From contig MNXM01000284.1 in NCBI GenBank assembly GCA_001872605.1, positions 1-41,648 on the forward strand: DNA of 41,648 nucleotides. Reading direction: 5' to 3'. The notes under the pieces were generated by a model. That model made no database searches. It was not told where the DNA came from and was given only the letters and a program-made list of their open reading frames with translations. A program made the translations under genes and the position numbers. Origin of the DNA: Armatimonadetes bacterium CG2_30_59_28. Lineage in GTDB: Bacteria > Armatimonadota > Abditibacteriia > CG2-30-59-28. Positions 963 to 15,739 of the stretch are shown piece by piece (position 1 is the first letter of the stretch; each line of letters begins with the position of its first letter).

Positions 963-3263
963 TGGTGCGTCACCTTACTACTCCCCCTGCTACTCGTCAA
1001 TCCTTTTGCGGCCTATGCGAAGAGTAAGAACGCAAAAGGCTTCTATTACCCAACCGACACCGTTCTGAGCAACAACGGCAACTGGCTGGACACCGAATGT
1101 GATAATTACCTAACTGGAAAGTATCATCTTGGACAGGACGTGTGCCGGTCAATTGGTGATAAGGTTTACGCAGTGGCAGATGGCAAGGTTGTCAACGAGC
1201 AGCACGGCGGGAATGTAACAGAGAGCCAACTCATTTGGATTGAACACTGCGTTGATGGGGGGAAGTTCTATGCCATCTATGCTCATGTGAATCACTCAAA
1301 AAGGGTCGATGACGAAGTTAATGCTGGAGACGAGATTGCGACGGTCGCGGATTACTTAGGATCCTGTGACCATTTGCACTTCGGCATAAACCCCAACGGG
1401 ATCGTGACAACCAAGGTGAACGGCATTGGCTGGGGAGCCGGTCCCTTACCCGCAGATTGGGACTGCAATAATCAGGACAAGAGCAAGCTCGAGACGCGGG
1501 GGTTTGTAGCTCCATATGACTACCTGAATTCGCACACACCTTGCGGTGGTGGTGGTGGCACCACCTACACCGTGACTGTCCGCACGAAGGTAGACGGTGG
1601 GAGTTACAACGCTGCGGCGAAGTTGAGCAAGTGGGTGAACGATCATTGGGAGACTGTCCCGGATTGTGATTGGGCGACTACCCCCTATTCCAAGGGCGGC
1701 CTGCCCGCGGCGCGTTATCGTTGCGAATACGGCACCACGGTCCCTGGTGGCAACGTGCCGGCCTGGTACAACGTCCCGGCGGCGGAGGAACACGGCAGCC
1801 CCATCACCGGCGACTTCACCTTCGAGCAGGAATATCAGCGCAAGGACTGGTATGCTCGCTACATGGGCCAGAGCATTGATATGTCGCCCATGGTGCCTGG
1901 TGAGACGAGAGTCTTCAGGTACACCTTCCGGAACGAAGGGAAGAACGCCTGGGACCAAAATGTGCGCCTGGGCACCGTGAATCCTCAGAACCGCGACAGC
2001 GCCTTCTGCACCTCCGGCGACTGGATTTCCTGCGGCCGTCCGACCGCGGCAAACGAGAACCCGGTGAACGGCGGGGGGGCGGACGGCAACCTCGACTTCG
2101 TAGTGACCGCGCCTTGCACGCCCGGCCACTACGAGGAGCACTTCAACATCCTCTACGAGAACCACTTCTGGTTCGGTGGGGACAGCGGCGGCCAGGATGT
2201 CAGCTTCGCTGTGGACGTTGCCGCTCCCTCCGCCCCTTCCGCGCCCACCCTTGCCTCGCCTCAACCGGGTTCCTGCGGTGCCTCGCCCACGCTCACGTGG
2301 AATGCTGTCAGTGGCGGGCCGTGCGGCGGCACTGTCTCCTACTTCGCCGAAATCAAAGGGGCAAATCCACCAAACAACAGCCGTGATTGGATTACCGGCA
2401 GAAGCTGGACACCGACGGGACTTGCCCCGGGCGCAAATTGCACCTGGCGGGTGAAGGCGAAGTCCAACGTGGGCGAGAGCGCCTGGAGTGGGGAGTGGAC
2501 TTTTCATGTCAACCAGGCTCCCAACAAACCCACGCTGAGCAGCCCGGCGAATAACGCGTGTGTGGGCAGTCGCGCGGTGCAACTGTGCTGGAACGATGCG
2601 GGAGACCCGGACAACTGCCCCAGCGCGCGCACCTATCGCGTTGTCGTGCCGGGCGCTTTCGATCAGTCCGGCATTGCCTCCACCTGTCAGACTGTTACCG
2701 TCAATGCAGACGGAGCGTTCTCCTGGTACGTGCTGGCGTATGACGGTCAAGCGTGGTCGGCGGCAAGCGACACGCGGAGCTTTACGGTGGATGCCACCCC
2801 TCCCAACGCCCCCACCGGCCTCACCGTCGCTCCCGATCACTTCACGGCGACGCTTGCGTGGACGGCGCCGGTGGAGACGGGGTGTTCCGGGGTGGCGGGG
2901 TACAACGTGTACCGGAGACGCAATGGCAGCAGCGGATATGTGAAGGTGAATACCACGCCCGTGACGGGCGTGACGCACACCGACACCCTCGCCAACGGGG
3001 TGGCGTATGACTACGCCGTGGCCGCGGTGGATACGTTCGGACGGGAAGGCGCGAAGGTGGAGGCGACCAACAAGGTCATCGGCAAACCCGGCGACATGAA
3101 CGGCGACGGAGAGATCGATATTGCCGACGTCATCAAGTGCATTAATGTTATCAACGACCCCAACGCCAGCGCGGTGGACAAGGCGTTGGCGGACTACAAC
3201 CGGGATAACAAAGCCGACGCAGCGGATGTGGAAGCGATGAAGAAGGCGATTCTTGGAAAATAA
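963..3263 (+). CDS. Secreted M23 endopeptidase with NBR1-like, FnIII and C-terminal dockerin domains (start unresolved)
   Basis: About 766 residues counted from 963. A hydrophobic signal-like segment (VTLLLPLLLVNPFAAYA) is followed by an M23/LytM peptidase domain with its metal-site residues intact: HxxxD in YHLGQD (His at 1125, Asp at 1137), VYAVADGKV, YAHV, and HLHF (His at 1371 and 1377). A start at 1140 would delete the first His, so the real start is upstream. An NBR1-type Ig-like domain follows (about residues 299-422; N.G...W, ending WFGG), then FnIII-like domains (about 424-516, 517-611, 612-705) and a type I dockerin-like module (about 707-766) with loops DMNGDGEIDIADV and DYNRDNKADAADV. 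M23 enzymes cut peptide bridges in peptidoglycan. No start codon lies in frame before 1140: either a CT-tract phase switch (ATG 778) or a +1 error at ATGG 962-965 explains this. The 3' third is nearly identical in DNA to that of the gene at 8093. Confidence 0.8.
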   Translation, partial: WCVTLLLPLLLVNPFAAYAKSKNAKGFYYPTDTVLSNNGNWLDTECDNYLTGKYHLGQDVCRSIGDKVYAVADGKVVNEQHGGNVTESQLIWIEHCVDGGKFYAIYAHVNHSKRVDDEVNAGDEIATVADYLGSCDHLHFGINPNGIVTTKVNGIGWGAGPLPADWDCNNQDKSKLETRGFVAPYDYLNSHTPCGGGGGTTYTVTVRTKVDGGSYNAAAKLSKWVNDHWETVPDCDWATTPYSKGGLPAARYRCEYGTTVPGGNVPAWYNVPAAEEHGSPITGDFTFEQEYQRKDWYARYMGQSIDMSPMVPGETRVFRYTFRNEGKNAWDQNVRLGTVNPQNRDSAFCTSGDWISCGRPTAANENPVNGGGADGNLDFVVTAPCTPGHYEEHFNILYENHFWFGGDSGGQDVSFAVDVAAPSAPSAPTLASPQPGSCGASPTLTWNAVSGGPCGGTVSYFAEIKGANPPNNSRDWITGRSWTPTGLAPGANCTWRVKAKSNVGESAWSGEWTFHVNQAPNKPTLSSPANNACVGSRAVQLCWNDAGDPDNCPSARTYRVVVPGAFDQSGIASTCQTVTVNADGAFSWYVLAYDGQAWSAASDTRSFTVDATPPNAPTGLTVAPDHFTATLAWTAPVETGCSGVAGYNVYRRRNGSSGYVKVNTTPVTGVTHTDTLANGVAYDYAVAAVDTFGREGAKVEATNKVIGKPGDMNGDGEIDIADVIKCINVINDPNASAVDKALADYNRDNKADAADVEAMKKAILGK

Positions 3264-3276
3264 ACCGCACGCAGAG

Positions 3277-3351
3277 ACGCGGAGACGCAGAGAAGAAGTG
3301 TTCAGTAATCAGTAATCAGTATTCAGAAATCAGTTCTCTGCGGCTCCGCGT
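3277..3351. repeat. Imperfect inverted repeat flanking a TCAGT-rich loop
   Basis: Arms 3277-3294 and 3334-3351 are complementary over 18 bp with one mismatch, and enclose a loop of ATTCAGT/AATCAGT units. This is a shortened relative of the perfect element at 10235-10338, also located directly after a dockerin gene. Confidence 0.75.
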
Positions 3352-3373
3352 GAGGAATCTTTGGGAGGCTACA

Positions 3374-3412
3374 GTGGACGCGATGAAGAAATTCATCTTG
3401 GGGAGGCAGTAA
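3374..3412 (+). pseudogene. Remnant: last 12 codons of a third dockerin gene
   Basis: GTG at 3374 to TAA at 3410-3412 encodes VDAMKKFILGRQ. This matches the C-terminal dockerin helix of the two complete genes (VEAMKKAILGK and VEAMKKFILGK). Immediately upstream, 3334-3373 matches the leader of the fibre gene at 10360 (inverted-repeat arm, then GGGAGGCTAC), but the fibre gene is missing and the sequence jumps to this dockerin tail. It marks a recombination junction that removed one fibre gene and most of one dockerin gene. Confidence 0.7.
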
Positions 3413-3474
3413 CCACGAATGGACACGAATGAACACGAAAACTGTAGGGGCGGACTCTGTCCTGCCCGTGTCAC

Positions 3475-3576
3475 TCAGGGAAGGCGAGTGTAAATCATGA
3501 TGAGCAGGGTTGCTTCCGTTATCCACGAGGCGACAAGCACAAGGATGGAGAGGAGGAACAGGCGACCGCTTTTCAT
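3475..3576 (-). CDS. Possible 33-residue membrane peptide
   Basis: ATG at 3576 opens a 33-residue frame with one hydrophobic segment (LFLLSILVLVASWI, then LLIMIY) ending in TRLP. It lies 13 bases downstream of the 79-residue coiled-coil/membrane protein, on the same strand. No family is recognised. The hydrophobicity and position suggest a membrane peptide co-transcribed with its neighbour, but so short a frame could be chance. Confidence 0.3.
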   Translation of the reverse strand: MKSGRLFLLSILVLVASWITEATLLIMIYTRLP

Positions 3577-3589
3577 CTGTCCACCATGA

Positions 3590-3829
3590 CTAATGACCCC
3601 GGAGGGAGAGTCCGATAATGAGACCAGCGAGCGTGAGCCACGATGTGAGAACAAGACCGGCGACCCATTTGAGTCCGGAATCCAAGCGGGTTTCGAGTCC
3701 GCCCATCCGCGCCTCAATACCGCTGATGCGTTGGACAAGTTGCTCAACGACCCCGCGCAAATGCGCCATCTCGTGCCGTATATCGGAAATGTCTTGATCG
3801 GTTCTATAGGTTTGCAGGTCAACCGCCAT
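3590..3829 (-). CDS. Small coiled-coil protein with C-terminal membrane helix (XhlA-like)
   Basis: 79 residues from the ATG at 3829. Residues 1-50 are a charged heptad-like helix (DISDIRHEMAHLRG, then ISGIEARMGGLETRLDSG), followed by a hydrophobic helix (WVAGLVLTSWLTLAGLIIG) and a short basic tail. The layout resembles hemolysin XhlA-type proteins, which in prophages accompany holins and endolysins, and also many unassigned small bacterial membrane proteins. It lies between the M23 hydrolase and the first fibre-like gene, on the opposite strand. Longer upstream readings exist, but they run through dispersed repeat sequence, so this Met is preferred although no clear ribosome-binding site is visible. 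A role with the hydrolases is only suggestive. Confidence 0.55.
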   Translation of the reverse strand: MAVDLQTYRTDQDISDIRHEMAHLRGVVEQLVQRISGIEARMGGLETRLDSGLKWVAGLVLTSWLTLAGLIIGLSLRGH

Positions 3830-3883
3830 AGTGGATGCAGTATACCAAACCACAGGAGAGAGTGCAACACTGCCAAAGGATGA

Positions 3884-3930
3884 AGGATGCTGAAACCTGA
3901 CACCTGAAACCTGACACCCGAAACCCAAAC
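3884..3930. repeat. CCTGACACCTGAAA tandem repeat
   Basis: Degenerate tandem copies of CTGAAACCTGACAC just upstream of the first fibre-like gene. It is a low-complexity dispersed repeat of the same kind as the GTGTCAAGTGTCAA run near 7174-7197. Confidence 0.7.
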
Positions 3931-3949
3931 ACTCAACAGGAGGTTACAA

Positions 3950-4390
3950 ATGAAAACGTTTCGCAGCATTCTGATCGGGCTAACAATCGCCTCGGTGGCG
4001 CGTGTGGGCGCGGAACCGATTGGCGACATCATCTCCTATCAGGGGAAGCTCACCAACGCCGACGGCACGCCGGTGGAGAACGGCAAGCACAGCGTGACAT
4101 TCAAGATCTACGCCAATGGCTCCGACAGCGGTTACAGCCAGACGATGGATGTGAACACAATCGGCGGAGTGTTTTCGGCTTTTCTCAGCGTCGGAGCCCT
4201 GACCTTCGATCCGACCAAGATCTACGAGCTGGGGATTGCGACAGACGGCGGGAGTGAGACGAAGCACACGATCTCCAGCGTGCCCGTGGCGAGAGCCGTC
4301 GCCGCGAACGGAGTCAACACGAGCTCTATCCAGGACGGATCCGTTACACAGGCGAAGGCACCGTGGGCCCCCCAGATGTACGGTTTATAG
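3950..4390 (+). CDS. Fibre-like secreted protein, copy 1: N-terminal module, stopped by TAG
   Basis: 146 residues, with GGAGG 10 bases before the ATG. Signal peptide MKTFRSILIGLTIASVARVGA is followed by a beta-rich module starting EPIGDIISYQGKLTNADGTPV and ending near SVPVARAV, then SSIQDGSVTQAK. The module is nearly identical to those at 5606 and 10360. Its pattern (YQG.L....G.PV.NG......I......, GGVFSAFLGVGAL.FDP...YE.G) is the common N-terminal domain of bacterial surface and tail-fibre-like proteins whose C-termini vary. The frame ends at TAG 4388-4390, six codons after the conserved module. The same frame stays open for 95 more codons of protein-like sequence, so the tip appears cut off by a nonsense codon. 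Export is inferred from the signal peptide; ligand unknown. Confidence 0.75.
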   Translation: MKTFRSILIGLTIASVARVGAEPIGDIISYQGKLTNADGTPVENGKHSVTFKIYANGSDSGYSQTMDVNTIGGVFSAFLSVGALTFDPTKIYELGIATDGGSETKHTISSVPVARAVAANGVNTSSIQDGSVTQAKAPWAPQMYGL

Positions 4391-4678
4391 GGACCAGCTT
4401 CCGGTCTAAAGATTGTTGTATGCGCATGGATGTTTACAGCAACGGGTGGAAATGTTTCTGAGACCTTCACGCCGGATATCAGTGGTGCAGGTCTTTCTGA
4501 TCGTCCCCTTGCAGGCGCTTTGAACTTTAGCTGTTGTGACGTTTCGAAAACCCAGGCTCTGTACAATTGGGATGCGTCCACCTCAAAGAATGCTGCGGTT
4601 ACTGTCACCAGATTGAACGGCGAAAAAATTTATGCTGGTGCACTATTCAGGGTAACCGGGATACTGATTGGAAAGTAA
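4391..4678 (+). pseudogene. Tip module of fibre copy 1, beyond the in-frame TAG
   Basis: In the same frame as the 3950 gene, the sequence after the TAG reads GPASGLKIVVCAWMFTATGG and continues through DISGAGLSDRPLAGALNF to RVTGILIGK, stopping at 4678. The composition (beta-prone, Gly/Thr/Asn-rich, no Arg/Pro runs) is that of a folded secreted domain. It has no similarity I can see to the tips of copies 2 and 3. It is translated only if the TAG is read through or if the ATG at 4430 is used, and that ATG would give no signal peptide. Confidence 0.55.
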
Positions 4679-4680
4679 AG

Positions 4681-4767
4681 ATGTACGTCGGTGAGAGGAT
4701 CGGCAACAACCCACAGCTTTTGAAGAAAGGCAAAGGCGTTATCGAGGTGCTGGTGGTGCAGAAGTAA
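4681..4767 (+). pseudogene. Displaced C-terminal tail behind fibre copy 1
   Basis: In a different frame from the fibre gene, 4681-4767 encodes MYVGERIGNNPQLLKKGKG then VIEVLVVQK and TAA. The final GKGVIEVLVVQK recurs at 6546 and, with one change, at 11125. Each copy sits behind a different tip and out of frame with it. It is probably the remnant of the original C-terminus of the ancestral protein. Confidence 0.6.
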
Positions 4768-4825
4768 TGGGTAATGGGGAAATGAGAGTGAGGGGGCGGA
4801 TGGCAGATTGCTGATGGCAGGCTAT

Positions 4826-5086
4826 TCAGGGATTGCGGAGCACTTCGTCGTGGCTCCCGATGGCGCGGAGGACGAGCACGCCCCGGTCGTAGTGAAAGGT
4901 AAAACGGTGATGGATGTCTACACGGCCTTCCAAGACCCCGCGTTGGCGTTGAACTCTCTTGGTGTGCAGAGAGGGATGGCGAGGGTTGTCGAGCAACACG
5001 TCGAGTTGGTCATAGAACTGTTCTCTGACCCGGGGCTCCAGGTCGCGAAGGTTCCGCTCGAACCTGGCCGTGGTGCGGTATCTCAC
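4826..5086 (-). CDS. RelE/ParE-fold toxin of a type II TA pair
   Basis: 86 residues, starting MRYRTTARFERNLRDLEPRV and continuing FYDQLDVLLDNPRHPSLHTK, then RVDIHHRFTFHYDRGVLVLRAIGSHDEVLRNP. The layout (two N-terminal helices, NPRHPSL.TK, a beta-strand core with HHRFTFHY, and a terminal GSHDEVLR) is that of RelE/YafQ/ParE-like toxins, many of which are ribosome-dependent mRNA interferases. The ATG overlaps the last four bases of the upstream antitoxin gene (5083-5086), indicating translational coupling. Known relatives are neutralised by the co-translated antitoxin. The subfamily cannot be set from sequence alone. Confidence 0.75.
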   Translation of the reverse strand: MRYRTTARFERNLRDLEPRVREQFYDQLDVLLDNPRHPSLHTKRVQRQRGVLEGRVDIHHRFTFHYDRGVLVLRAIGSHDEVLRNP

Positions 5087-5373
5087 GCGTTACCCTCGAT
5101 CTTGCGGCGCAATTCGTCGACGGTGTCATATTCGTGGACGCGCCCGGCGGCAATGTCGGCGTCGGCGGCGCGTTCTTTCTCCTGCCACTCGGGGGTCCAG
5201 AAGTACGCCTGGTCGGGGTCAATCTTGTTGACAAGCGGTCCCAGCCTGAGGAAACGAATGAAGTCGCGCACCTTGCGGAGTTGCCCGGGGCGCAGACCTG
5301 CTAACTCCTGGGCGACAGATTCTCGGAGAGAGATAGAAGTTCCCGATTTTCGCGGGAGGGTTTGTGTGGGCAT
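5083..5373 (-). CDS. Antitoxin partner of the RelE-like toxin
   Basis: 96 residues from the ATG at 5373, which has AAGGA seven bases upstream. The middle is helical (SVAQELAGLRPGQLRKVRDF), and the C-terminus (AADADIAAGRVHEYDTVDEL) is the typical extended toxin-binding tail of RelB-like or DUF2281-like antitoxins. It precedes and overlaps the toxin gene by 4 bases. A longer reading to 5451 exists, but it contains low-complexity sequence and overlaps the promoter. It probably binds DNA to autoregulate the pair; no operator could be identified. Confidence 0.7.
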   Translation of the reverse strand: MPTQTLPRKSGTSISLRESVAQELAGLRPGQLRKVRDFIRFLRLGPLVNKIDPDQAYFWTPEWQEKERAADADIAAGRVHEYDTVDELRRKIEGNA

Positions 5374-5404
5374 GGCAACATCCTTAGTTGTTTCAGTTGG
5401 CGTG

Positions 5405-5433
5405 AGTATAGCAGGGGGACCAGAAGAGCGCAA
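5405..5433 (-). promoter_or_regulatory. Promoter for the RelE-like TA pair
   Basis: Read on the minus strand: TTGCGC (5428-5433), 17-bp spacer, TATACT (5405-5410), about 31 bases before the antitoxin ATG at 5373. The -10 is one mismatch from consensus; the -35 keeps only the TTG. Confidence 0.5.
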
Positions 5434-5496
5434 GCGGACCCGAGAAACCACGGATGGACACAGATAGTCGGGGTCGTAGAGCGGAGGCGGAGTCTA

Positions 5497-5512
5497 CCCC
5501 GATGCCTCGGGG
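5497..5512. repeat. CCCCGA-TCGGGG hairpin
   Basis: Six-bp stem with a TGCC loop. The same stem recurs at 15747-15762 and, in longer form, at 11174-11192. No T-tract follows, so a terminator role is uncertain. Confidence 0.6.
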
Positions 5513-5605
5513 TCCCCGCCCGCGTTGCGTCGCCCACGGCCTATTGGAGAACGGTAGTCGGCAAGGACGGAGCACCCGCCCTACGCACAACACAGGAGGC
5601 AACAA

Positions 5606-6406
5606 ATGAAAACGTTTCGCAGCATTTTGATTGGTCTGGTAATCGCCTCGGCGGCGCGGGTGGGCGTCGTACGCCCCGTATGGGCGGAACCGATTGGCGA
5701 CATCATCTCGTATCAGGGCAAGCTCACCAATGCCGATGGCACGCCGGTGGCGAACGGGACGCAGAGCGTGACCTTCAATATCTACGAGAACGGCTCACCG
5801 GTCTTCACGCAGAACTCCTCCGTCGCGACGGTGGGCGGCGTGTTCTCCGCCTTCCTCGGCGTCGGCGCTCTCAACTTCGACCCCGTGAAGCAGTATGAGA
5901 TGGGGGTGACCTTCGGAGGAACGGAGACGAAACACTCGATTGCCAGCGTGCCGGTGGCGCAAGTGGCGAAGTCTGTTACCGTCGACGCGATTGCTGGTTC
6001 GGAATGGAGGACTTACACGCCGATCTGGGCTATGACTGCGGGGAACCAACCGTCAATTGGTAACGGCGTTATCCGAGGTAGCTACCAGAAACTTGGCCGA
6101 GTGGTCTACTTTGAGATGCAGGTGGCGACAGGGAGTACAACGACATTTGGGTCCGGCGGAGGGGTATACGAGTTCACGCTACCGCTGCCAGCGGCACAGG
6201 ACACAGTGAGCAAATTCACCGCATACCTTTTCGAGGCAGGCACCGCGCACTACCTCGCAATTGGCATACCTCAGGGGCAGGGCGGTCCCAGTTTCCGAGT
6301 CTACCAGAATGGGAACACGGGGGCTGGTATCTCTCCTACGGTGCCCTTTCTGTGGCGTTCAGGTTGCAGCCTTTCGGTTTCCGGCACCTATCAGGCCGCC
6401 GAGTGA
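5606..6406 (+). CDS. Fibre-like secreted protein, copy 2, with phage-tail-like tip
   Basis: 266 residues; AGGAGG lies just before the ATG. Signal peptide MKTFRSILIGLVIASAARVG, then the shared module EPIGDIISYQGKLTNADGTP through SVATVGGVFSAFLGVGALNF to SVPVAQVAKSV (about residues 30-130). The tip (about 131-266) starts GSEWRTYTPIWAMTAGNQPS and continues IGNGVIRGSYQKLGRVVYFE, then GSTTTFGSGG and FTLPLPAA. This W..YTP.W....QPSIGNG...G.Y...G..V.F pattern occurs in C-terminal domains of phage tail-fibre and receptor-binding proteins. The protein stops at TGA 6404-6406; the conserved ancestral tail follows in another frame (6433-6546). This is the only copy with both the shared module and a complete, well-formed tip. 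Location is probably cell surface or secreted; binding target unknown. Confidence 0.8.
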   Translation: MKTFRSILIGLVIASAARVGVVRPVWAEPIGDIISYQGKLTNADGTPVANGTQSVTFNIYENGSPVFTQNSSVATVGGVFSAFLGVGALNFDPVKQYEMGVTFGGTETKHSIASVPVAQVAKSVTVDAIAGSEWRTYTPIWAMTAGNQPSIGNGVIRGSYQKLGRVVYFEMQVATGSTTTFGSGGGVYEFTLPLPAAQDTVSKFTAYLFEAGTAHYLAIGIPQGQGGPSFRVYQNGNTGAGISPTVPFLWRSGCSLSVSGTYQAAE

Positions 6407-6432
6407 GGTCTCGCGTTTCTCCACCTGCGACC

Positions 6433-6546
6433 ATGACATGGATGCGACCTGGGGAGTCGAAGCTGCTGGGCGCGGCGCTGGGCAAGGCGCTGCAACCGCT
6501 GAGTTCAGGCAAGGGCGTGATCGAGGTGCTGGTGGTGCAGAAGTAA
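6433..6546 (+). pseudogene. Displaced C-terminal tail behind fibre copy 2
   Basis: Frame +1 relative to the fibre gene encodes MTWMRPGESKLLGAALGKAL, then QPLSSGKGVIEVLVVQK and TAA at 6544-6546. The DNA of the last 80 bases closely matches 11042-11125. The form (PGE..LLG.ALGKALQPL.SG.GVIEVLV) resembles C-terminal ends of intact bacterial surface/fibre proteins. It begins 27 bases after the stop of the tip, out of frame, as expected for an old C-terminus left behind by tip replacement. Confidence 0.65.
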
Positions 6547-6605
6547 TGGGTAGTTGGGTAATTGGGTAACTGGGTAACTGGGTAATTGGGTAATGGGGTG
6601 GGTAG
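6545..6605. repeat. GGGTAATTGGGTAACT tandem repeat
   Basis: About six imperfect copies of the 8-mer TGGGTAAT/TGGGTAAC directly after the displaced tail. Shorter runs of the same unit follow the tails of copy 1 (4767-4782) and copy 3 (11127-11155), so the repeat travels with the 3' end of the fibre unit. Confidence 0.85.
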
Positions 6606-6664
6606 TAGATAGCAGTTGGCAGATGGCTGATGATGGATGGGGCGGAATCTGTCATGCCCACAGG

Positions 6665-6934
6665 TCATCTGCGGCGGTAGGTTTTCTCGCTCCGGCGGGC
6701 AACTTTGTCAATGACGACGCGACGGGATATGTCATGGACGGTGTAGATAACTCGATAGGAACCCACTCGGACACGATAGGTGTCGCCACCCAGTTTTCGG
6801 CAGCCGGGAGGTCGCGGGTTGGCGCCGAGGTCCTTAATGGCCGCCACGACCGCTTCAAAGTGCGTATCGGGCAAGACATTGAGTTGCTTCTCCACCCGCG
6901 AGCTGGCGTTGTCGACTCTATACGGATGCTGCAC
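6665..6934 (-). CDS. RelE/ParE-family toxin
   Basis: 89 residues if started at the GTG at 6934, which overlaps the antitoxin end by 17 bases. It contains SRVEKQLNVLPDTHFEAVVA, AIKDLGANPRPPGCRKLGG and DTYRVRVGSYRVIYTVHD, ending ARRSEKTYRRR. The string NPRPPG.RKL.G...YRVR.G.YRVIY is the hallmark of RelE/ParE toxins, including the C-terminal Arg/Tyr cluster typical of ribosome-dependent mRNA interferases. A longer reading to 7012 adds residues unlike the family. The antitoxin lies upstream on the same strand. Confidence 0.85.
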   Translation of the reverse strand: MQHPYRVDNASSRVEKQLNVLPDTHFEAVVAAIKDLGANPRPPGCRKLGGDTYRVRVGSYRVIYTVHDISRRVVIDKVARRSEKTYRRR

Positions 6935-7148
6935 GTTGGCGCCGCTCCCGCAGGTAGTCTTCGAAGGGACGACCTTTGCCGCGTGCATACTCAGCCTCGG
7001 AGATACGCGCATCGCGGAGATCTTCGAGGTCTTCGAGCAATTCCTGTAGCGTCCGGACCTCTTCGGAGTCGTCGTCGCCGTTGTGCGAGTGGACGACTTT
7101 GCGCAACGCGCCGATTTGTTTGTTGGTAAGAGTCAGAGTCACGCTCAT
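6918..7148 (-). CDS. Antitoxin of the second RelE-type pair
   Basis: 76 residues from the ATG at 7148. It begins MSVTLTLTNKQIGALRKVVH, has an acidic helix (SEEVRTLQELLEDLEDLRDA), and ends with RGKGRPFEDYLRERR, a toxin-clamping C-terminus of the RelB/YefM type. Its stop (6918-6920) lies inside the toxin gene. Three tandem TTGACACT units lie upstream (7174-7197), and TTGACA-like repeats there might serve as promoter or operator, but no well-spaced -10 box was found. Confidence 0.7.
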   Translation of the reverse strand: MSVTLTLTNKQIGALRKVVHSHNGDDDSEEVRTLQELLEDLEDLRDARISEAEYARGKGRPFEDYLRERRQRAASV

Positions 7149-7173
7149 GTTGCATCACCGAAGGGAGGGTAAC

Positions 7174-7197
7174 AGTGTCAAGTGTCAAGTGTCAAGC
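7174..7197. repeat. GTGTCAA tandem repeat upstream of the second TA pair
   Basis: Three copies of AGTGTCAA in tandem. On the minus strand each contains TTGACAC, so they could provide -35-like or operator sequences for the antitoxin gene starting at 7148. Confidence 0.6.
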
Positions 7198-7252
7198 GGC
7201 GGATAACAGATAGCTGATGGCGAATAGCGGATGGAGTGAAACATCTGCCATC

Positions 7253-7306
7253 TCACATCCGAGTTCCCACATCGGGACGTCATCCCACATCCGAGATTGG
7301 GGGATG
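7253..7306. repeat. Dispersed repeat ACATCCGAGTTCCCACAT/CCGAGATTGGGGGA
   Basis: The segment ACATCCGAGTTCCCACAT, followed by CCACATCCGAGATTGGGGGA, recurs at 11238-11267, in both cases just downstream of the last gene of a minus-strand two-gene module. The 7253 copy carries about 19 extra bases in the middle. Confidence 0.7.
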
Positions 7307-7313
7307 GAGGGGG

Positions 7314-7646
7314 TTACAGAACTTCGACGGCAGATTCGGTCATGAAGAGGATTTCCTGGTCCAGCCAGTCAGATGATTGCCAGAGGCGTTTGTGATGTTC
7401 GAGGAATTCGCGGGCAGAGTTGATATCGTCGGAGAAAACGCCGTAGATTTTCACGTCTTCGGTTTGGGTGAAGCCAAACCCGGTCCAGGAGCCTTGCATG
7501 GAGAAGAGTGGCTGCTCGAACCGAGTCAGCCCGCCAAACCGCTGGATCAAGGACTCTTGAATGGCCAGAAATTTCGCGGCTTCGATGGACGAGCCGTCGT
7601 TGTAGCGATAGGGAAGAAACACGTTGTACCACGCGCCGTGTTTCAT
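7314..7646 (-). CDS. Hypothetical protein, second gene of a two-gene module
   Basis: 110 residues, starting MKHGAWYNVFLPYRYNDGSS and continuing IEAAKFLAIQESLIQRFGGL, then SWTGFGFTQTEDVKIYGVFS and HKRLWQSSDWLDQEILFMTE. It looks like a real alpha/beta cytosolic protein, with no signal peptide or membrane helix, but I do not recognise a family. The ATG overlaps the stop of the upstream gene by four bases (7643-7646). Position, size and coupling mimic the neighbouring toxin-antitoxin pairs, so it may be the effector of an unrecognised TA-like module; that is inference. Confidence 0.65.
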   Translation of the reverse strand: MKHGAWYNVFLPYRYNDGSSIEAAKFLAIQESLIQRFGGLTRFEQPLFSMQGSWTGFGFTQTEDVKIYGVFSDDINSAREFLEHHKRLWQSSDWLDQEILFMTESAVEVL

Positions 7647-8092: not shown

Positions 8093-10231
8093 ATGAAACG
8101 AGAACGCAATAGTCTGTGGAAGGTAGCGGCGGCGATGCTGGTCGCTATGTGGACCGGGTGCGGCAGCACGTGGGCGCGAACACAGGTGTGCGGGACGGAT
8201 ATCGACAACTACTTGAGGAACAATGGCAACTACATGACCGGCACTGGCGCGGCGTATGTGAAGTGGGGGAAGTACTTCAATGTTGATCCCCGCCTAATGG
8301 TGGGAATCTCCAATGCCGAGAGCACTTTGGGGAAGACCCCATGCGGAACGAACGAAACCGGCACGTGGAACGCATGGGGATGGTTTGGCGGGATTGGGTA
8401 CTGTTGGCCTTACTTCGCCCCCGGATGGGACAGTGACTGTAATCGAGCGGAATTTGCTGACGCGCCTGGCTACGTGGCGGGCAAGGGCATCGAGATGGCA
8501 ACCGGCTGGGAGGATGGGATATTCTGGGTGACCCGCACAATCCGCAAGGAGTACCTGAATGCTGGATATGACACCGTAGCCAAGATCCGCCCCAGGTACT
8601 GTCAGAGCCGCTGTGAGAACTGGGAGAGCAATGTCAACGCTTCCCTCAGTGCATTGATCGGAGACCCGAACCAGCTCGACTTCCCGGGAGAAAGTTGCAC
8701 CGGTGACACCTCCCCTCCCTCCGTCGTCTTCACCAGGGAAGACGGCAAGGGCGGATGGACGAATGACCGGAACAAGGTTGTGGTCGAGTGGCGGATTGAG
8801 GATTCCGGAGGGAGTGGGGTCAAGGGGTTCCACCAGCGCTGGGATGAAACGACCCCAACGGATGACAATGTGCTGCAATCTTCTACCGGTTCCCTCAGCC
8901 TCGGTCAGCATCCGACTCTCACCAACGGTTGGCACACCGCCCACGTCCGGGGAAGGGACAATGCCGGCAACACGAGTGACGACAGGACTTCCGGGCAATA
9001 TGGTTTTGATGGCAGTCCGCCGACGGTGACGATCACCTCGGGTCATGTCAACGGCGGGACCTACAACTCACCGGGCCCGGTAACCTGGAGCCTCGCCGAC
9101 CCGCATTCAGGAGTGAAGGGCTTCGGTCAGGCATGGGACAGTGTTCCACCGTATCAGTTCAACACCGACACCGGGTGGCTGGACTTGCCGGAGGGTACGC
9201 ATACACTTCACGTACACGCCTGGGACAATGCGGGCAATGACAAAGACTGGACTTGGACGTTCACCTACCAGCCTCAAGGCACCCTCTCCGTCACCACCAT
9301 TAGCAACACGCAATGCGGGGTAAGCGGGCCGGTGTCTGTGGATGGGACCGCATGGGGCAATGCTCCGCAGTCGAAGAAGGTGAACACGGGCAGCCATACC
9401 GTCAGTTTCGGCGCGGTGTCGGGCTACAACACACCGGGGAACCAGACCGTGACTGTGAACAAGGACCAGACGACGAACGTGTCCGGCAAATACACCGACA
9501 CCACCAATCCAATCATCAATGTCACCGCGCCGGCGGTGAATACGTGCCTGCCGCCTCTGCAGACGGTTTCATGGACTACGACCGATATTTGTACCGCCGG
9601 ACTGACGGTGCAATATTCCTGGGATGGCGGGACTTTCCAGACCACAAGTCTGTCTGGCAGCCTCACCGTGCCGGATGGGACTCACACCCTCAAGCTGAAG
9701 GGCACGGATGCGGCGAGCAACATGGGTGATATCACGGTGGGGCCGTTCATCGTTGACACCACCCCTCCCGCCGCTCCCACCGCGCTCACCGTCACTCCCG
9801 AGCATTTCAAGGCGACGCTGGCATGGGCGGCGCCAGCCGCTGATGGCGGTTGTTCGGGTGTGGTGGGGTACAACGTGTACCGCAAGCGCAATGGCAGCGG
9901 CAGTAATGCGAAGGTGAACACCACGCTCGTGACGGGCGTGACGCACACAGACACCCTCGCCAATGGAGTGGCGTATGACTACGCCGTGGCCGCGGTGGAT
10001 ACGTTCGGACGGGAAGGCGCGAAGGTGGAGGCGACCAACAAAGTCGTCGGCAAACCGGGCGACATGAATGGGGATGGGGAGATTGATATTGCCGACGTCA
10101 TCAAGTGCATCAATGTCATCAACGACCCCAACGCCAGCGCGGTGGACAAGGCGTTGGCGGATTACAATCGCGACAACAAAGCCGACGCGGCGGATGTGGA
10201 AGCGATGAAGAAATTCATATTGGGGAAATAG
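8093..10231 (+). CDS. Secreted glucosaminidase/lysozyme-fold protein with Ig-like, FnIII and dockerin domains
   Basis: 712 residues from the ATG at 8093; an adjacent TTG at 8090 is possible. The signal peptide ends near TGCGSTWA; the Cys at WTGC is a poor lipobox. Residues about 30-200 form a lysozyme-like domain: GAAYVKWGKYFNVDPRLMVG, SNAESTLGK with the likely catalytic Glu76, NAWGWFGG, and a late EDGIFWVTRTIRKEYLNAGY. This layout matches bacterial endo-N-acetylglucosaminidase (GH73-like) domains that cut peptidoglycan glycans. Ig-like repeats follow (about 203-306 and 306-393, with RDNAGN/WDNAGN), a PEGA-like segment (394-470), another Ig-like domain (471-556), FnIII (557-650) and a dockerin-like C-terminus (653-712; DMNGDGEIDIADV, DYNRDNKADAADV). 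It complements the M23 enzyme: glycan-strand versus peptide cleavage. The upstream ribosome-binding site is weak. Confidence 0.8.
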   Translation: MKRERNSLWKVAAAMLVAMWTGCGSTWARTQVCGTDIDNYLRNNGNYMTGTGAAYVKWGKYFNVDPRLMVGISNAESTLGKTPCGTNETGTWNAWGWFGGIGYCWPYFAPGWDSDCNRAEFADAPGYVAGKGIEMATGWEDGIFWVTRTIRKEYLNAGYDTVAKIRPRYCQSRCENWESNVNASLSALIGDPNQLDFPGESCTGDTSPPSVVFTREDGKGGWTNDRNKVVVEWRIEDSGGSGVKGFHQRWDETTPTDDNVLQSSTGSLSLGQHPTLTNGWHTAHVRGRDNAGNTSDDRTSGQYGFDGSPPTVTITSGHVNGGTYNSPGPVTWSLADPHSGVKGFGQAWDSVPPYQFNTDTGWLDLPEGTHTLHVHAWDNAGNDKDWTWTFTYQPQGTLSVTTISNTQCGVSGPVSVDGTAWGNAPQSKKVNTGSHTVSFGAVSGYNTPGNQTVTVNKDQTTNVSGKYTDTTNPIINVTAPAVNTCLPPLQTVSWTTTDICTAGLTVQYSWDGGTFQTTSLSGSLTVPDGTHTLKLKGTDAASNMGDITVGPFIVDTTPPAAPTALTVTPEHFKATLAWAAPAADGGCSGVVGYNVYRKRNGSGSNAKVNTTLVTGVTHTDTLANGVAYDYAVAAVDTFGREGAKVEATNKVVGKPGDMNGDGEIDIADVIKCINVINDPNASAVDKALADYNRDNKADAADVEAMKKFILGK

Positions 10232-10234
10232 GAG

Positions 10235-10338
10235 CTCACGCGGAGTCGCGGAGCCGCGGAGAAGAAGTGTTCAGTGTTCAGTAATCAGTATTCAGTATTC
10301 AGAAGTCAGTTCTCCGCGGCTCCGCGACTCCGCGTGAG
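10235..10338. repeat. 29-bp perfect inverted repeat with TCAGT loop
   Basis: Arms 10235-10263 and 10310-10338 are exact reverse complements over 29 bp. The 46-base loop is built of TTCAGT/AATCAGT units. The element starts 4 bases after the dockerin gene's stop and ends 21 bases before the next fibre gene. It may act as a transcript-end hairpin or recombination site. A degraded copy is at 3277-3351. Confidence 0.95.
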
Positions 10339-10359
10339 GAATTCTTAGGGAGGCTACAA

Positions 10360-11133
10360 ATGAAAACGTTTCGCAGCATTTTGATTGGTCTGGTAATCGC
10401 CTCGGCGGTGCGTGTGGGTGCGGAGCCGATTGGGGACATCATCAGCTACCAGGGCAAGCTCACCAACGCCGACGGCGCGCCGGTGGCGAATGGGACGCAG
10501 AGCGTGACGTTCAAGATCTATGAGAACGGCACCCCGGTCTTTACGCAGACCTCCTCCGTGGCGACACTCGGCGGCGTCTTCTCCGCCTTCCTCGGCGTCG
10601 GTGCCCTCAACCTCGATCCGGCAAAGCAGTATGAGATGGGCGTGACCTACGCGGGGAAGGAGACGAAGCACCAGATTGCCAGTGTGCCGATGGCGAAATC
10701 CGTCGCCGCGAACGGAGTCAGCACGAGCTCGATCCAGGACGGAGCGGTGACCCAGGACAAGGCGCCCTTTGCATTGGCCGGGAGAGACCCCCGGAGTTTC
10801 ATTCAGTCGGGGGTTTGGATAGGGGACACAGACGCCACAGGCGCTTGCGTCATCCCTTATCCCAAGCCCTTCAATGGCATTTCTTTCGCTATCGCAATGA
10901 ATGGTCATTACGACGCTACTGGATCTGTCGTCATCAACGGAAACGGTCTCGGTTTTTATGACGGGCTCCACCTAAAGACCAACCGGCCGAACCTTCATCT
11001 ACAGATATGGCGGATGGCGATTGGGTGGAAACAGGTGGAAGATGCTGGGCGCGGTGCTTGGCAAGGCGCTGCAACCGCTGAACTCGGGTACAGGCGTAAT
11101 CGAGGTGCTGGTGGGGCAGAAATAACTGGGTAA
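10360..11133 (+). CDS. Fibre-like secreted protein, copy 3, with a third tip
   Basis: 257 residues; GGGAGG lies 9 bases before the ATG. Signal peptide MKTFRSILIGLVIASAVRVGA and the shared module EPIGDIISYQGKLTNADGAP through GGVFSAFLGVGALNLDPAKQ to SIQDGAVTQDKAP. The tip begins about residue 141: DPRSFIQSGVWIGDTDATGA, CVIPYPKPFNGISFAIAMNG, then VVINGNGLGFYDGLH. The pattern (SG.W...DA.G...I.YPKPF.., later GF) is that of phage tail-fibre distal beta domains. After about residue 225 the frame runs into the conserved tail region in the wrong frame, so the last 30 residues (Arg/Gly/Ala-rich, ending AGGAEITG) are probably not ancestral. Neighbours are the dockerin-bearing hydrolase upstream and a converging DUF433/DUF5615 pair downstream. 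Confidence 0.75.
   Translation: MKTFRSILIGLVIASAVRVGAEPIGDIISYQGKLTNADGAPVANGTQSVTFKIYENGTPVFTQTSSVATLGGVFSAFLGVGALNLDPAKQYEMGVTYAGKETKHQIASVPMAKSVAANGVSTSSIQDGAVTQDKAPFALAGRDPRSFIQSGVWIGDTDATGACVIPYPKPFNGISFAIAMNGHYDATGSVVINGNGLGFYDGLHLKTNRPNLHLQIWRMAIGWKQVEDAGRGAWQGAATAELGYRRNRGAGGAEITG
11042..11125 (+). pseudogene. Displaced C-terminal tail, overlapping the 3' end of fibre copy 3
   Basis: In frame +1 relative to the fibre gene, 11042-11125 encodes MLGAVLGKALQPLNSGTGVI then EVLVGQK and TAA. It closely matches the tail at 6433-6546 in DNA and protein. Here it overlaps the fibre frame, which reads through it out of phase to 11133. Confidence 0.6.
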
Positions 11134-11173
11134 TGAATGAGGGTAATTGGGTAATGTCGGAGCGAAGCGGAGA

Positions 11174-11192
11174 TCCCGACGAGACGTCGGGA
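11174..11192. repeat. TCCCGACG-CGTCGGGA hairpin
   Basis: Perfect 8-bp stem with a 3-base loop in the intergenic repeat zone between two converging units. It lacks a T-tract. It is related to the CCCCGA hairpins at 5497 and 15747. Confidence 0.65.
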
Positions 11193-11274
11193 GGGTAATG
11201 GGGTGCGTGGCGGATGGGATTTGACATCCCACACCAAACATCCGAGTTCCCACATCCGAGATTGGGGGAGGGTG

Positions 11275-11700
11275 TCAGGGGATGGGGAAGGTTCGTTCCT
11301 CCGTCTCGCCTGTGGCGCGGCGGATGCGACAACGACCGAATTCAACAATGGTGGTGGCGTGACGCAGGTTCTGAATAGGTATGGAGCGCAGGAAAGACAG
11401 GATGAGCGAGATGATGGCATCCCGCTTCAGGTTTTGCACCTTGAGAACAATGATGCCGGGGTTGCTGCCCGGCGGATAGGCCAGGATGTCGGCAAAGTCG
11501 AAGTCGCGAGTGACAATCATTGCTTGCAGCTCTCTCGCGGTGGTTGCGATGTCTTCATCGGGAATGCCAGGCGCCGCTTCTTCTCTGATGTCGTGGACGG
11601 TGTGTCCCGCTGTTCGTAAGGCGTCTGCGGCAGCGACGGGGATATTGGCGTCAAGCAAGAGGATGGAAGATGGGTCGCTGTCAGTGTCCATTCCCGCCAA
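11275..11700 (-). CDS. DUF5615-type PIN-like toxin
   Basis: 141 residues (ATG at 11700; the Met at 11691 is an alternative). Core motifs: ILLLDANIPVAAADALRTAG, HTVHDIREEAAPGIPDEDIA, and MIVTRDFDFADILAYPPGSN, then PGIIVLKV. LLD.N.P....D.LR..GH.V, D..I...A, and VT.D.DF is the signature of DUF5615 (PIN-like/Mut7-C-like) proteins, which keep the acidic residues of PIN nucleases and are paired with DUF433 antitoxins. The gene overlaps the upstream DUF433 gene, in the usual antitoxin-first order. Nuclease activity in this family is mostly inferred from fold. Confidence 0.85.
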   Translation of the reverse strand: MAGMDTDSDPSSILLLDANIPVAAADALRTAGHTVHDIREEAAPGIPDEDIATTARELQAMIVTRDFDFADILAYPPGSNPGIIVLKVQNLKRDAIISLILSFLRSIPIQNLRHATTIVEFGRCRIRRATGETEERTFPIP

Positions 11701-11950
11701 TCCTCTCCGTCAATGCTGCTGCGAAGCGGAGGGCAGCATCAACGTCGGCAACGGTGACGGGCGGATAGTCCGCCGCTATCTCGGCGGGTGTATGCCCTGC
11801 GGCCAAAGCGTCCAGAATGACATAAACCAACACCCTGGTGCCGCGGATACATGGCTTGCCGTGGCATACCTCGGGATCGATGGTGATACGGTCATCATCG
11901 AGGATGCGCACGGCTGGATAAACGGTGATTGGTTTTGTGAGAGTTGCCAT
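11681..11950 (-). CDS. DUF433 antitoxin
   Basis: 89 residues from the ATG at 11950. The core reads RITIDPEVCHGKPCIRGTRV, then YVILDALAAGHTPAEIAADY and PPVTVADVDAALRFAA. I.IDP.V..GKP.IRGTR..V..IL..LA.G.T..EI...YP..T..D..AAL is diagnostic of DUF433, a winged-helix-like antitoxin family partnered with DUF5615 or PIN toxins. The longer reading to 11992 runs into the promoter, so the internal Met is preferred. The stop lies 20 bases inside the toxin gene. Confidence 0.88.
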   Translation of the reverse strand: MATLTKPITVYPAVRILDDDRITIDPEVCHGKPCIRGTRVLVYVILDALAAGHTPAEIAADYPPVTVADVDAALRFAAALTERIGGNGH

Positions 11951-11982
11951 CGGTTCTCGCCTCAGTTCCACTATCGATGTCA

Positions 11983-12012
11983 ATGATACCACGTAGAAGA
12001 TATGGCGTTCAA
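11983..12012 (-). promoter_or_regulatory. Promoter of the DUF433/DUF5615 pair
   Basis: Read on the minus strand: TTGAAC (12007-12012), 18-bp spacer, TATCAT (11983-11988), 32 bases before the ATG at 11950. Both boxes are close to the sigma-70 consensus. Confidence 0.6.
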
Positions 12013-12073
12013 CAACTAACCACGGGAATTATGAGTGCGTGAATGCGGGAGTGAGTCAAATGGAGGTAGTAAG

Positions 12074-15000
12074 ATGAGACGATACTCTGTTCTGTTGAGC
12101 CTGACGGTTCTGGCGGTCACAGCTCTTACAGGGCGTGCCAACGCCGAGATGCCTGCCGGCGCGGCGACGGCGGGTGGCGTGGTGGCGCTGCCGGGCGGTG
12201 GCGCGGGTGGTTTCGCGGGTGCATTGGGCCAGTTGGCAATTGGGCACTCGGACGATGGCACAATCTGGAGCGGGTTGATTACGCCGGATGGACTGCCCGC
12301 CTCGTATCAGTCTGAGATATCCATCCCCTCAGACCTGACGGCCACTCCGGGGGCCACGGTGTCGATCCCCATCTATCTCAAGGGACAGTCCCCCTTTGCC
12401 GGCGCGCAGGCGTTCATCGGATTCCAGTCGAGTGTGCTGTCGTTTGTGAGCATCGCCAAAGGATCGCTCATCGCCTCCGATGCGGACTGGATTGTGGAAG
12501 CGAACGTGGTCAATGGGAATCAGTTGCGGCTGATTGCGTATCCGGGGATGACATCGAAGACCGTATCACCCGATCCCACCAAGCCCCTGGCCGTGGTGCA
12601 GATGCAGGTGAGCGCGTCCGCCACTCCCGGCAGCACGATGGATCTCACCTTTGCGCGGATCACCAAAGCGGTTGCCCGGAATGGCGATACGCTGCCACTG
12701 CGATGGTTGAATGGTAAGGTGAAGATTGGCACGCCTCGCCCCGACCTGCTGATCAAGAAGGACTCCGAGGCAGACACTGCCTTTGCGATCAACGATGTGT
12801 ACCAGACGAGTCCTTCCGGAGACCAGATTGAGACTCAGACCACCGATGCGAACAAGGCCGCAGCTTTCCATGTGAAGGTGCAGAACGATGGCGACGCGGC
12901 GCAAACGTATTTCCTGAAAGCCACGGAGAGCGATGGGGCGGGTTGGACCATCACGTACAAACTCCTGCCTTCGCAGGAAGACATCACCGACAAGATGCGA
13001 GCCGGGTACACGACCCCGACGATCAATATCGGGGAGAGCGTGGTGATCGTTGTCCAGATGACACCCGCCACTACCGTCGCAGGGGGAAACAGCAAGAGCG
13101 TGACCATCGCTGCGGTTGGGAATGCCGCAGACACGCAGGTCAAAGACGCGGTGATGGCGACGGCAACGGTTGGTGTCTATTCCATCTCCGGTATCGTCAC
13201 CCTCAACGACACCACCGATGCTTCCGGTGTGAAGGTGGAAGCAGGCGGCAAGTCGGTGACGACACTCGCGGACGGGAAGTATACGATTGGAGGTCTCGTC
13301 TCCGGCACGTACCCGGTGAAGGCCAGCAAGGCGGAATACACCTTCACCGACCAGAACGTGACGCTCGGCCCGGATAAGACCGAAGTTAACTTCACAGGAA
13401 CGCGGAAGACCTACTCCATCTCCGGCACGGTGACTCTCAACGACACCGCCGATGCTTCCGGCGTGAAGGTGGAAGCAGGGGGCAAGTCGGCCACAACGCT
13501 TGCGGACGGGAAGTACACGATCACCGGTCTGATTCCCGGCACGTACACGGTGAAGGCGACCAAGGCGGAATACACGTTTGCCCCTGCGACGATGAACGTA
13601 ACGGTGGGACCCGTAGGTCAGACAGGCGCCAATTTCACAGGCACCCGCAATACCTACTCCATCTCCGGCGCGGTGACTCTTAACGACACCGCCGACGCTT
13701 CCGGCGTGAAGGTTGAAGCGGGTGGCAAGTCCGTCACCACCATTGCGGACGGGAAATACACGATCGGTGGTCTCGTCTCCGGCACGTACCAGGTGAAGGC
13801 CAGCAAGGCAGAATACACGTTCACCGACCAGAACGTGACCCTCGAACCGGACATTACCGGAGTCAACTTCGCGGGAATGCGGGTTACTCCCGACCTCCTT
13901 ATCAAGAAGACTGCGGAGACGGACACGGCGTATCAGATCAACAACGTCTATCAGACTTCGCCTTCGGGAGATCAGACCGAGAAAGACGAAGCCCCACCCA
14001 AGGCGAGCGCGTCTTTCTCGGTCAAGGTGGAAAACGATGCGACGGTCGCACGCGCGTTCGTTCTAAAGACGGAAGCGTCATCCGAGGCGGGATGGACCGT
14101 TGTCTACAAGAGCGGCACGACGGACATAATGACCCAGATGGTGAGCGCGTCGGGCTACACGACCGGCAGCCTCGCCCCGGGAGGCAGCCAGGTTGTGACC
14201 GTGGATATGACACCGGATTCGAGCGTGATCGGAAGTACCTCCAAGAGCGTCACCATCAAGGCGTTCCTCGACAGCTCGGACACAAGGGTGCGTGACGCGG
14301 TGATGATGACAACCACGGCAAAGGTGGTGGCTCAGCCCGACGCTCTCATCAAGGAATCCGGGGCGCCGGATGCGGAGTATCAGATTAACGATACCTACCA
14401 GCCTACACCCACAGGCGGGCAGATTCTGCAGCGGAAGGTACAGCGGAACAAGACGGTGGCTTTCAGCGTGAAGGTCGAAAACGACGGGAACACCGATCGT
14501 GGTTTTGTCCTGAAGTTGCAGGTGACAACCGAAACCGGCTGGACCGTAGTGTACAAGTCTGGAACTACGGACGTTACTTCCTCAATCACGCAGTCAGGCG
14601 GTTATCCGACGAAGACGTTGTCTCCCAGGGAGGCGGAGACTATCACTGTGGAGATGACTCCCAGTGCGCGGCTCAGTAACGGCAGCACGAAGAGCGTGAC
14701 CGTGAACGCCTTTCTGGATAGCTCGGACAGCGCCGTCCGCGATTCAGTGAAAGCGATCGGGGAGGTTACCGGAGCATCCCCTCCGACAATCGCGAGCATT
14801 ACACCGAATGAAGGTGCAAACAACCAGGCGGTGGATATCACAAACCTGTCGGGAGGCGGATTCCAGCCCGGCGCGGCGGTGAAGCTGAAGAAGGAGGGAC
14901 AGAGCGATATCAACGCCACCGAGGTGAAGGTGATCTTGTCGACGAAGATTACGTGCAAGTTCGACCTCCAGGGAAAGGCAACGGGATTGTGGAACGTGGC

Positions 15001-15739
15001 AGTGGTTAATCCTGATGAGCAGGACGGGTATCTGCTCAATGGATTCACCGTGAACCCCCCGCCGCCGCCGACCGTGCAGTTCACCCTTGCCAGCCAGAGC
15101 AGCCCGGTGGAAAGCGGGGACCTGACCATCACGGCGCAGTTGTCCGCGGTTTCCGCACAAAACGTGACGGTTCCATACTCGATCAGTGGCACAGCGACGG
15201 AGAACGTTGACTACACCATCACGGCAAGTCCGATCACGATTCCCGCGGGTAGGACGACGGGGACAATCACGATCACGATCAAGGAAGACACGGTGGATGA
15301 GACAGACGAGACCGTCATCGTCACCATGGGAGACCCGACGAACGCGACCAAGGGCGCAACCACCGTGCATACTGCAACGATCGCAGATGACGATGGCTCA
15401 CCATCGCCGACTCACGACGTCGCCCTTACCGCCTTCTCCGCGTCACCCACCACGGTGAGCCGCGGGCAGAGGGTGACCTTCTCCTACACGGTGAAGAACA
15501 ATGAAACCGTGACGGAGACGAACCTGACCTTCCGACTGACGTACAACGGTCAACCCGTCGGTCAGCCGAAGCCCATTGCATCGCTGGGGACTGGGCAGCA
15601 GACCTCGGGAACGATCAGAATCAAGGTCCCGCGACGGCAGAAGACAGGTGACTACCTCATCACCGGCGCCGTTTCCACCGTCCCTGGTGAAACCAACACC
15701 GCGAATAATAGCCAGACGGTGAAGGTAACAGTGAAGTGA
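12074..15739 (+). CDS. Secreted multidomain protein with N-terminal cohesin-like domain (candidate scaffoldin)
   Basis: 1221 residues from the ATG at 12074 (GGAGG seven bases upstream; the GTG at 12035 lacks such a site). Signal peptide MRRYSVLLSLTVLAVTALTG, cut near RANA. Residues about 78-221 look like a cohesin: SIPSDLTATPGATVSIPIYL, GAQAFIGFQSSVLSFVSIAK, LAVVQMQVSASATPGSTMDL, then LRWLNGKVKIG. Three copies of a CARDB-like module start PDLLIK/PDALIK (about 222-366, 604-752, 754-898), with three carboxypeptidase-regulatory-like repeats (YSISG.VTLNDT.DASGVKV; about 368-602) between the first and second. An IPT/TIG domain (903-992), a Calx-beta domain (996-1108) and a C-terminal CARDB domain (1112-1221) follow. 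No cell-wall anchor or transmembrane helix is seen at the C-terminus. Cohesins bind dockerins; two dockerin-bearing murein hydrolases are encoded just upstream. Pairing is inferred. Confidence 0.75.
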   Translation: MRRYSVLLSLTVLAVTALTGRANAEMPAGAATAGGVVALPGGGAGGFAGALGQLAIGHSDDGTIWSGLITPDGLPASYQSEISIPSDLTATPGATVSIPIYLKGQSPFAGAQAFIGFQSSVLSFVSIAKGSLIASDADWIVEANVVNGNQLRLIAYPGMTSKTVSPDPTKPLAVVQMQVSASATPGSTMDLTFARITKAVARNGDTLPLRWLNGKVKIGTPRPDLLIKKDSEADTAFAINDVYQTSPSGDQIETQTTDANKAAAFHVKVQNDGDAAQTYFLKATESDGAGWTITYKLLPSQEDITDKMRAGYTTPTINIGESVVIVVQMTPATTVAGGNSKSVTIAAVGNAADTQVKDAVMATATVGVYSISGIVTLNDTTDASGVKVEAGGKSVTTLADGKYTIGGLVSGTYPVKASKAEYTFTDQNVTLGPDKTEVNFTGTRKTYSISGTVTLNDTADASGVKVEAGGKSATTLADGKYTITGLIPGTYTVKATKAEYTFAPATMNVTVGPVGQTGANFTGTRNTYSISGAVTLNDTADASGVKVEAGGKSVTTIADGKYTIGGLVSGTYQVKASKAEYTFTDQNVTLEPDITGVNFAGMRVTPDLLIKKTAETDTAYQINNVYQTSPSGDQTEKDEAPPKASASFSVKVENDATVARAFVLKTEASSEAGWTVVYKSGTTDIMTQMVSASGYTTGSLAPGGSQVVTVDMTPDSSVIGSTSKSVTIKAFLDSSDTRVRDAVMMTTTAKVVAQPDALIKESGAPDAEYQINDTYQPTPTGGQILQRKVQRNKTVAFSVKVENDGNTDRGFVLKLQVTTETGWTVVYKSGTTDVTSSITQSGGYPTKTLSPREAETITVEMTPSARLSNGSTKSVTVNAFLDSSDSAVRDSVKAIGEVTGASPPTIASITPNEGANNQAVDITNLSGGGFQPGAAVKLKKEGQSDINATEVKVILSTKITCKFDLQGKATGLWNVAVVNPDEQDGYLLNGFTVNPPPPPTVQFTLASQSSPVESGDLTITAQLSAVSAQNVTVPYSISGTATENVDYTITASPITIPAGRTTGTITITIKEDTVDETDETVIVTMGDPTNATKGATTVHTATIADDDGSPSPTHDVALTAFSASPTTVSRGQRVTFSYTVKNNETVTETNLTFRLTYNGQPVGQPKPIASLGTGQQTSGTIRIKVPRRQKTGDYLITGAVSTVPGETNTANNSQTVKVTVK

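Follow-up and report, generated by a model that had tools for sequence, protein, structure and literature searches.

The 41,648-nucleotide (nt) window analysed here, the whole of contig G000:C205 from a 90% complete genome of 5.49 Mb in 344 contigs (Armatimonadetes bacterium CG2_30_59_28, G000), carries between ~0.9 and 15.7 kb six plus-strand genes for secreted proteins, in the order M23-dockerin protein, fibre 1, fibre 2, lysozyme-like-dockerin protein, fibre 3 and cohesin protein (Table 1). We propose that these genes encode a small dedicated display, in which wall hydrolases would dock singly on a one-cohesin stalk beside fibres and the likeliest target would be the walls of other bacteria, a reading to which we give an even chance of being correct. 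Whole-genome searches found one cohesin, two dockerins and three fibre proteins, every one of them inside the same 15 kb cluster, with the sole cohesin and the sole dockerins falling in one 10 kb stretch. For random independent placement, the odds that the dockerin and fibre families both lie ≤12 kb from the cohesin are ~2e-5, a rough value, as neighbouring genes are not placed independently.

We assigned the cohesin by profile, structure prediction and fold comparison. The Pfam profile PF00963 matches positions 12320-12655 with 38.9 bits against a cut-off of 24.1, its single match in the genome. AlphaFold2 modelling of positions 12296-12736 together with 27 cohesins from the phylum gave a predicted local distance difference test (pLDDT) score of 95.3 and a predicted template modelling (pTM) score of 0.89, and each of the 50 listed PDB fold matches to the model is a cohesin or a cohesin-like module, type I cohesins ranking first (E 6.6e-11 to 3.7e-6). 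The alignment profile also retrieves solved cohesins from the PDB by sequence; the window cohesin sequence by itself matched no solved cohesin in a sequence search. The modelled cohesin fold is thus unambiguous, and the identification of residues 78-221 as a cohesin by an earlier, sequence-only reading of the window stands. The same holds for the long beta-repeat spacers that it described in the stalk protein: three CarboxypepD_reg repeats and a Calx-beta domain exceed their Pfam cut-offs, NEW3/CARDB-like domains lie slightly below theirs, and the gene contains 243-nt tandem repeats at 13177-13882. Pfam recognised no anchor in the stalk protein, and a scan of the genome collection returned no match to it. 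No other cohesin that might anchor the dockerins was detected in the 90% complete genome.

The two dockerins score 41.9 and 42.5 bits with PF00404 (cut-off 22.9), retain both calcium loops, DMNGDGEIDIAD and DYNRDNKADAAD, and are not joined by a third anywhere in the genome. Each is preceded by an FnIII domain, which exceeds its Pfam cut-off in the M23 protein and is near-identical in the lysozyme-like protein, so that both hydrolase genes do end in the same FnIII-dockerin module. Over the final 140 codons the modules share 85% DNA identity, locally up to 58 of 60 positions. This similarity extends beyond the stop codon (repeat family D7) and the module was therefore probably duplicated recently.

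The two catalytic heads are assigned with different confidence. The M23 assignment is solid at sequence level, with 50 bits against a cut-off of 28.7 and the HxxxD/HxH zinc ligands intact as HLGQD and HLHF. The other head, earlier read as a glucosaminidase/lysozyme fold, is probably lysozyme/GH73-like. It has no Pfam match, and four weak matches were found in three libraries (endolysin, 0.052; IagB, 0.035; 8yxk, 0.51; 5wqw, 0.56). Most of these point to the lysozyme/GH73 superfamily, and their alignments cover the stretch leading into the NAES motif; unrelated chains are comparable in the PDB search, where GDNF chains score similarly. The head has no close relatives in 291 genomes of the phylum and none in phages or plasmids; a single viral match was dropped, as the contig stretch there holds no matching gene. 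Structure prediction, made with no relatives to align, gave a pLDDT of 31.

In the proposed display, either dockerin enzyme would plug, one at a time, into the cohesin near the N-terminus of the stalk, a pairing that we infer from the sequence. Since one cohesin holds one dockerin at a time and the genome has a single cohesin, each complex would carry one enzyme: the M23 endopeptidase, predicted to cut peptide bonds, or the lysozyme/GH73-like enzyme, predicted to cut the glycan of peptidoglycan. The components would be secreted across an outer membrane; Omp85 and four secretins encoded in the genome indicate a diderm host with possible secretion routes. The likeliest target would be the wall of other bacteria, be they competitors, prey or dead cells, and the three fibres with their differing tips may provide recognition of the target surface.

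As had been noted, the fibre-like proteins lie between the enzyme and cohesin genes. Their N-termini are 72-83% identical, and the end of fibre 2 (5984-6403) resembles the end regions of proteins from Pseudomonas and Streptomyces phages, some of which carry a pectate lyase annotation. A ~90-base repeat ending in GVIEVLVVQK-stop follows fibres 1 and 2 (4677-4767 and 6456-6546), and a third copy overlaps the end of the fibre 3 gene in another reading frame (11035-11125). The repeat resembles the coding end of another member of the fibre family, which would fit an exchange of tips that left the former end in place. A phage origin of the entire cluster is disfavoured by the signal-peptide-like N-termini of its proteins and by a composition similar to that of the neighbours, the match to phage proteins being limited to the fibre 2 tip. 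In their constant N-terminal module, variable tips and phage-like tip, the fibre-like proteins resemble the mosaic adhesive trimer (MAT) fibre family described in Bdellovibrio (PMC10769870). The N-terminal module matches the NCBIfam profile Bdello_MAT_N (NF053851) weakly (best E 2.8e-7) and, at 30.5 bits, stays below the family cut-off of 60.

Table 1 Features of the cluster in the window
Feature	Coordinates	Strand	Evidence
(CT)12 tract, between the ATG at 778 and the M23 frame	856..879	+	Sequence
M23-dockerin gene: signal-peptide-like stretch, M23, NBR1-type Ig, FnIII, dockerin	960..3263	+	Pfam, translation
Peptidase M23 domain with HLGQD and HLHF	1122..1400	+	Pfam E 3.5e-13
Dockerin type I, copy 1	3087..3254	+	PF00404 E 6.5e-10; best PDB match 3ul4_B
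Fibre-like protein 1	3950..4390	+	In-frame TAG at 4388-4390; frame continues as plausible protein to ~4678
Fibre-like protein 2	5606..6406	+	C-terminal 130 residues match phage protein ends; phrog_13144 E 1.4e-13
Lysozyme-like-dockerin gene: signal peptide, probable lysozyme/GH73-like head, Ig-like domains, FnIII, dockerin	8093..10231	+	Pfam; weak head matches
Probable lysozyme/GH73-like head, NAES Glu codon 8318-8320	8171..8698	+	Weak matches
Dockerin type I, copy 2	10055..10222	+	PF00404 E 4.5e-10; 97% residue identity with copy 1
Fibre-like protein 3	10360..11133	+	Shared N-terminal module
Cohesin stalk protein: signal peptide, cohesin, repeated beta-sandwich domains	12074..15739	+	Pfam
Cohesin domain (residues 75-221 of the stalk protein)	12296..12736	+	PF00963, AlphaFold2, PDB fold matches
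Sigma-70-like promoter match TTGACA-18-TAAAAT, upstream of cluster	551..580	+	11/12 consensus positions

The comparison covered seven genomes of the class, the window's own among them, and 291 genomes of the phylum. Within the class, dockerins occur solely in the window's genome and in G003, which belongs to another family, and these are also the only two genomes in which cohesin and dockerin occur together. The window's cohesin subfamily finds strong matches in no genome but these two, with two cohesins of a third, G006, reaching ~1e-6; the profile was built from G000 and G003 sequences, so that its informative point is the absence elsewhere. The sole dockerin protein of G003 (L143) carries a putative papain-like wall hydrolase head (weak, non-significant C92 match, E 0.29), followed by the PEGA/NBR1-Ig/FnIII/dockerin layout of the window's M23 protein (E 6e-18), and its open frame continues into a cohesin that is 22% identical to the window cohesin (E 6e-8 in a pairwise test). 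Two neighbouring genes may here be read as one, since the linking stretch resembles sequence found outside genes elsewhere in G003. A separate G003 cohesin is 35% identical to that of the window. Co-occurrence of the two domains thus extends to one further family of the class; in the window's own family, G001 (72% complete) shows neither domain.

That absence is one of several observations that weigh against a docked display. In G006, of the same class, nine cohesin matches were found, several in one 2197-residue frame (L144, L145), and no dockerin was detected; dockerins are numerous in G009, G098 and further genomes in which no cohesin was detected; and cohesin-only and dockerin-only genomes are common in the phylum. 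The cohesin of L143 lies under Pfam detection and is recognised by pairwise similarity alone. In the window, the weak assignment of the second catalytic head counts in the same direction, as does the start of the M23 gene. The start near 963 given by the sequence-only reading is not in frame, and from the upstream stop (786-788) to 1140, already past the first zinc ligand, the frame contains no ATG, GTG or TTG, while still encoding a signal-peptide-like stretch. An ATG with a good Shine-Dalgarno-like site lies at 778, in a different frame and upstream of the (CT)12 tract, which is unique in the 5.49 Mb genome: no other run of eight or more CT units occurs on either strand. A changed number of CT units could join the two frames, which would fit phase variation; decay of the M23 gene, or an error in sequencing or assembly, is at least as likely. 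The missing standard start and the stop in fibre 1 together suggest that some genes of the cluster may be decayed or misassembled.

The strongest alternative needs no docking: the cohesin would be an extra beta-sandwich spacer that binds no dockerin, the dockerins would be calcium-stabilised C-terminal caps or bind another partner, and their adjacency would stem from duplication of secreted proteins with shared modules. The nine cohesins of G006 and the many dockerins of G009, G098 and others, each lacking a detectable counterpart, suit this explanation, and recent duplication is visible at the locus. It accounts less well for the single 10 kb stretch that holds all cohesins and dockerins of the window's genome and for a co-occurrence that, within the class, is restricted to G000 and G003, in the latter in a single frame. 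We consider it possible, though rather unlikely.

A second alternative keeps the docked hydrolases and changes their target, with the display serving the wall or outer matrix of the host itself in growth, separation or turnover. Most M23 and lysozyme-like enzymes that diderms export work on the wall of the producing cell, which speaks for this alternative. Hydrolases with the Ig module are, moreover, widespread in the phylum, as would suit a housekeeping role: the NBR1-type module occurs elsewhere on Amidase_2, Amidase_3 and C39-like proteins, related M23 proteins match too, and all are without dockerins. This association of the module with wall-hydrolase types equally speaks for the display that we propose. 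This type of secreted wall hydrolase therefore seems to have gained dockerins within the class. Confinement of the system to two of the seven class genomes, the phage-like fibre tip and the tandem duplication better suit an accessory, outward role, and we judge an own-wall function quite unlikely. For most genomes only the best dockerin locus was inspected, often in part, so that the phylum may well hold more wall hydrolases with dockerins. In three genomes of one genus (G036:C145, G047:C1 and G065:C252), in which no cohesin was detected, a dockerin gene lies ~2-3 kb from an oppositely oriented NBR1-type Ig gene.

A more elaborate version of the proposed display would be an antibacterial docking weapon with interchangeable hydrolase heads on the one-cohesin stalk, aimed by fibres whose swapped tips derive from phages and toggled by slippage of the (CT)12 tract; taken with all these parts, it is improbable. 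Least probable of all is a multi-enzyme "murein cellulosome" with both hydrolases simultaneously on one scaffold. In its favour, the two almost identical dockerins carry heads whose bond specificities complement each other, and cohesin systems with another dedicated substrate, such as amylosomes and mucinolysomes, are reported (PMC12997984), yet we rejected it as the principal explanation because the single cohesin of the genome allows one enzyme per complex unless the stalk protein oligomerises, and a scaffold missed in the 90% complete genome, while possible, is not indicated.

Apart from the lysozyme-like head, for which the matches are weak, the domains that the sequence-only reading had proposed were thus confirmed; its complex of both enzymes and its claim to a new kind of assembly were not supported. 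Dockerin-bearing wall hydrolases are already part of Ruminococcus cellulosomes: in R. flavefaciens, RflaF_05439 combines two NlpC/P60 domains with an X-dockerin and docks on the ScaE cohesin (PMC3573020), and the cellulosome of R. champellensis has both dockerin-bearing wall hydrolases and lysozyme activity (PMC6403190). The window would share with these systems heads of wall-hydrolase type, carried by dockerins to a single-cohesin partner. In Ruminococcus, however, such hydrolases make up a minor share of the cargo that large plant-degrading cellulosomes carry in monoderms, whereas the window's genome, apparently that of a diderm, has no other dockerin cargo and fibres stand alongside. Neither a multi-cohesin scaffoldin nor dockerin-bearing plant-polysaccharide hydrolases, as a cellulosome would have, were found, the only two dockerins being those on the M23 and lysozyme-like proteins. 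Mucinolysomes and amylosomes likewise devote a cohesin-dockerin system to a substrate other than cellulose, but use many enzymes and several scaffoldins where the window has two enzymes and a single cohesin. Clostridium perfringens NagJ/GH84C (2jh2, 2w1n) provides a non-cellulosomal, enzyme-borne cohesin-like module of the same fold beside FnIII, reminiscent of the hydrolase-dockerin-cohesin frame of G003; in the window the cohesin sits on a separate stalk protein instead. A stand-alone locus with wall hydrolases as the only dockerin cargo, accompanied by fibres, was not found in the open-licence literature searched.

To our knowledge, cohesin-dockerin pairs have been studied almost exclusively as carriers of polysaccharide-degrading enzymes. 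If the proposed display is correct, this plug-and-socket principle can be dedicated to bacterial walls, here in a diderm. One cohesin and two dockerins form a small, easily expressed set for a direct binding test, and the locus might yield modular lytic enzymes.

The promoter-type sequence upstream of the cluster is to be read as a mere consensus match, as eight such sites were found against 5.5 expected. Small open reading frames (ORFs) on the minus strand lie between the cluster genes, among them, between fibre and hydrolase genes, one at 11275-11700 that matches the PIN-like family DUF5615 and one at 5083-5451 that appears antitoxin-like by eye and has no Pfam match. Elsewhere on the contig, positions 26117-26848 (plus strand) encode an AbiEii-type nucleotidyltransferase, and a neighbouring dehydrogenase gene has relatives spread over many phyla in the genome collection scan.

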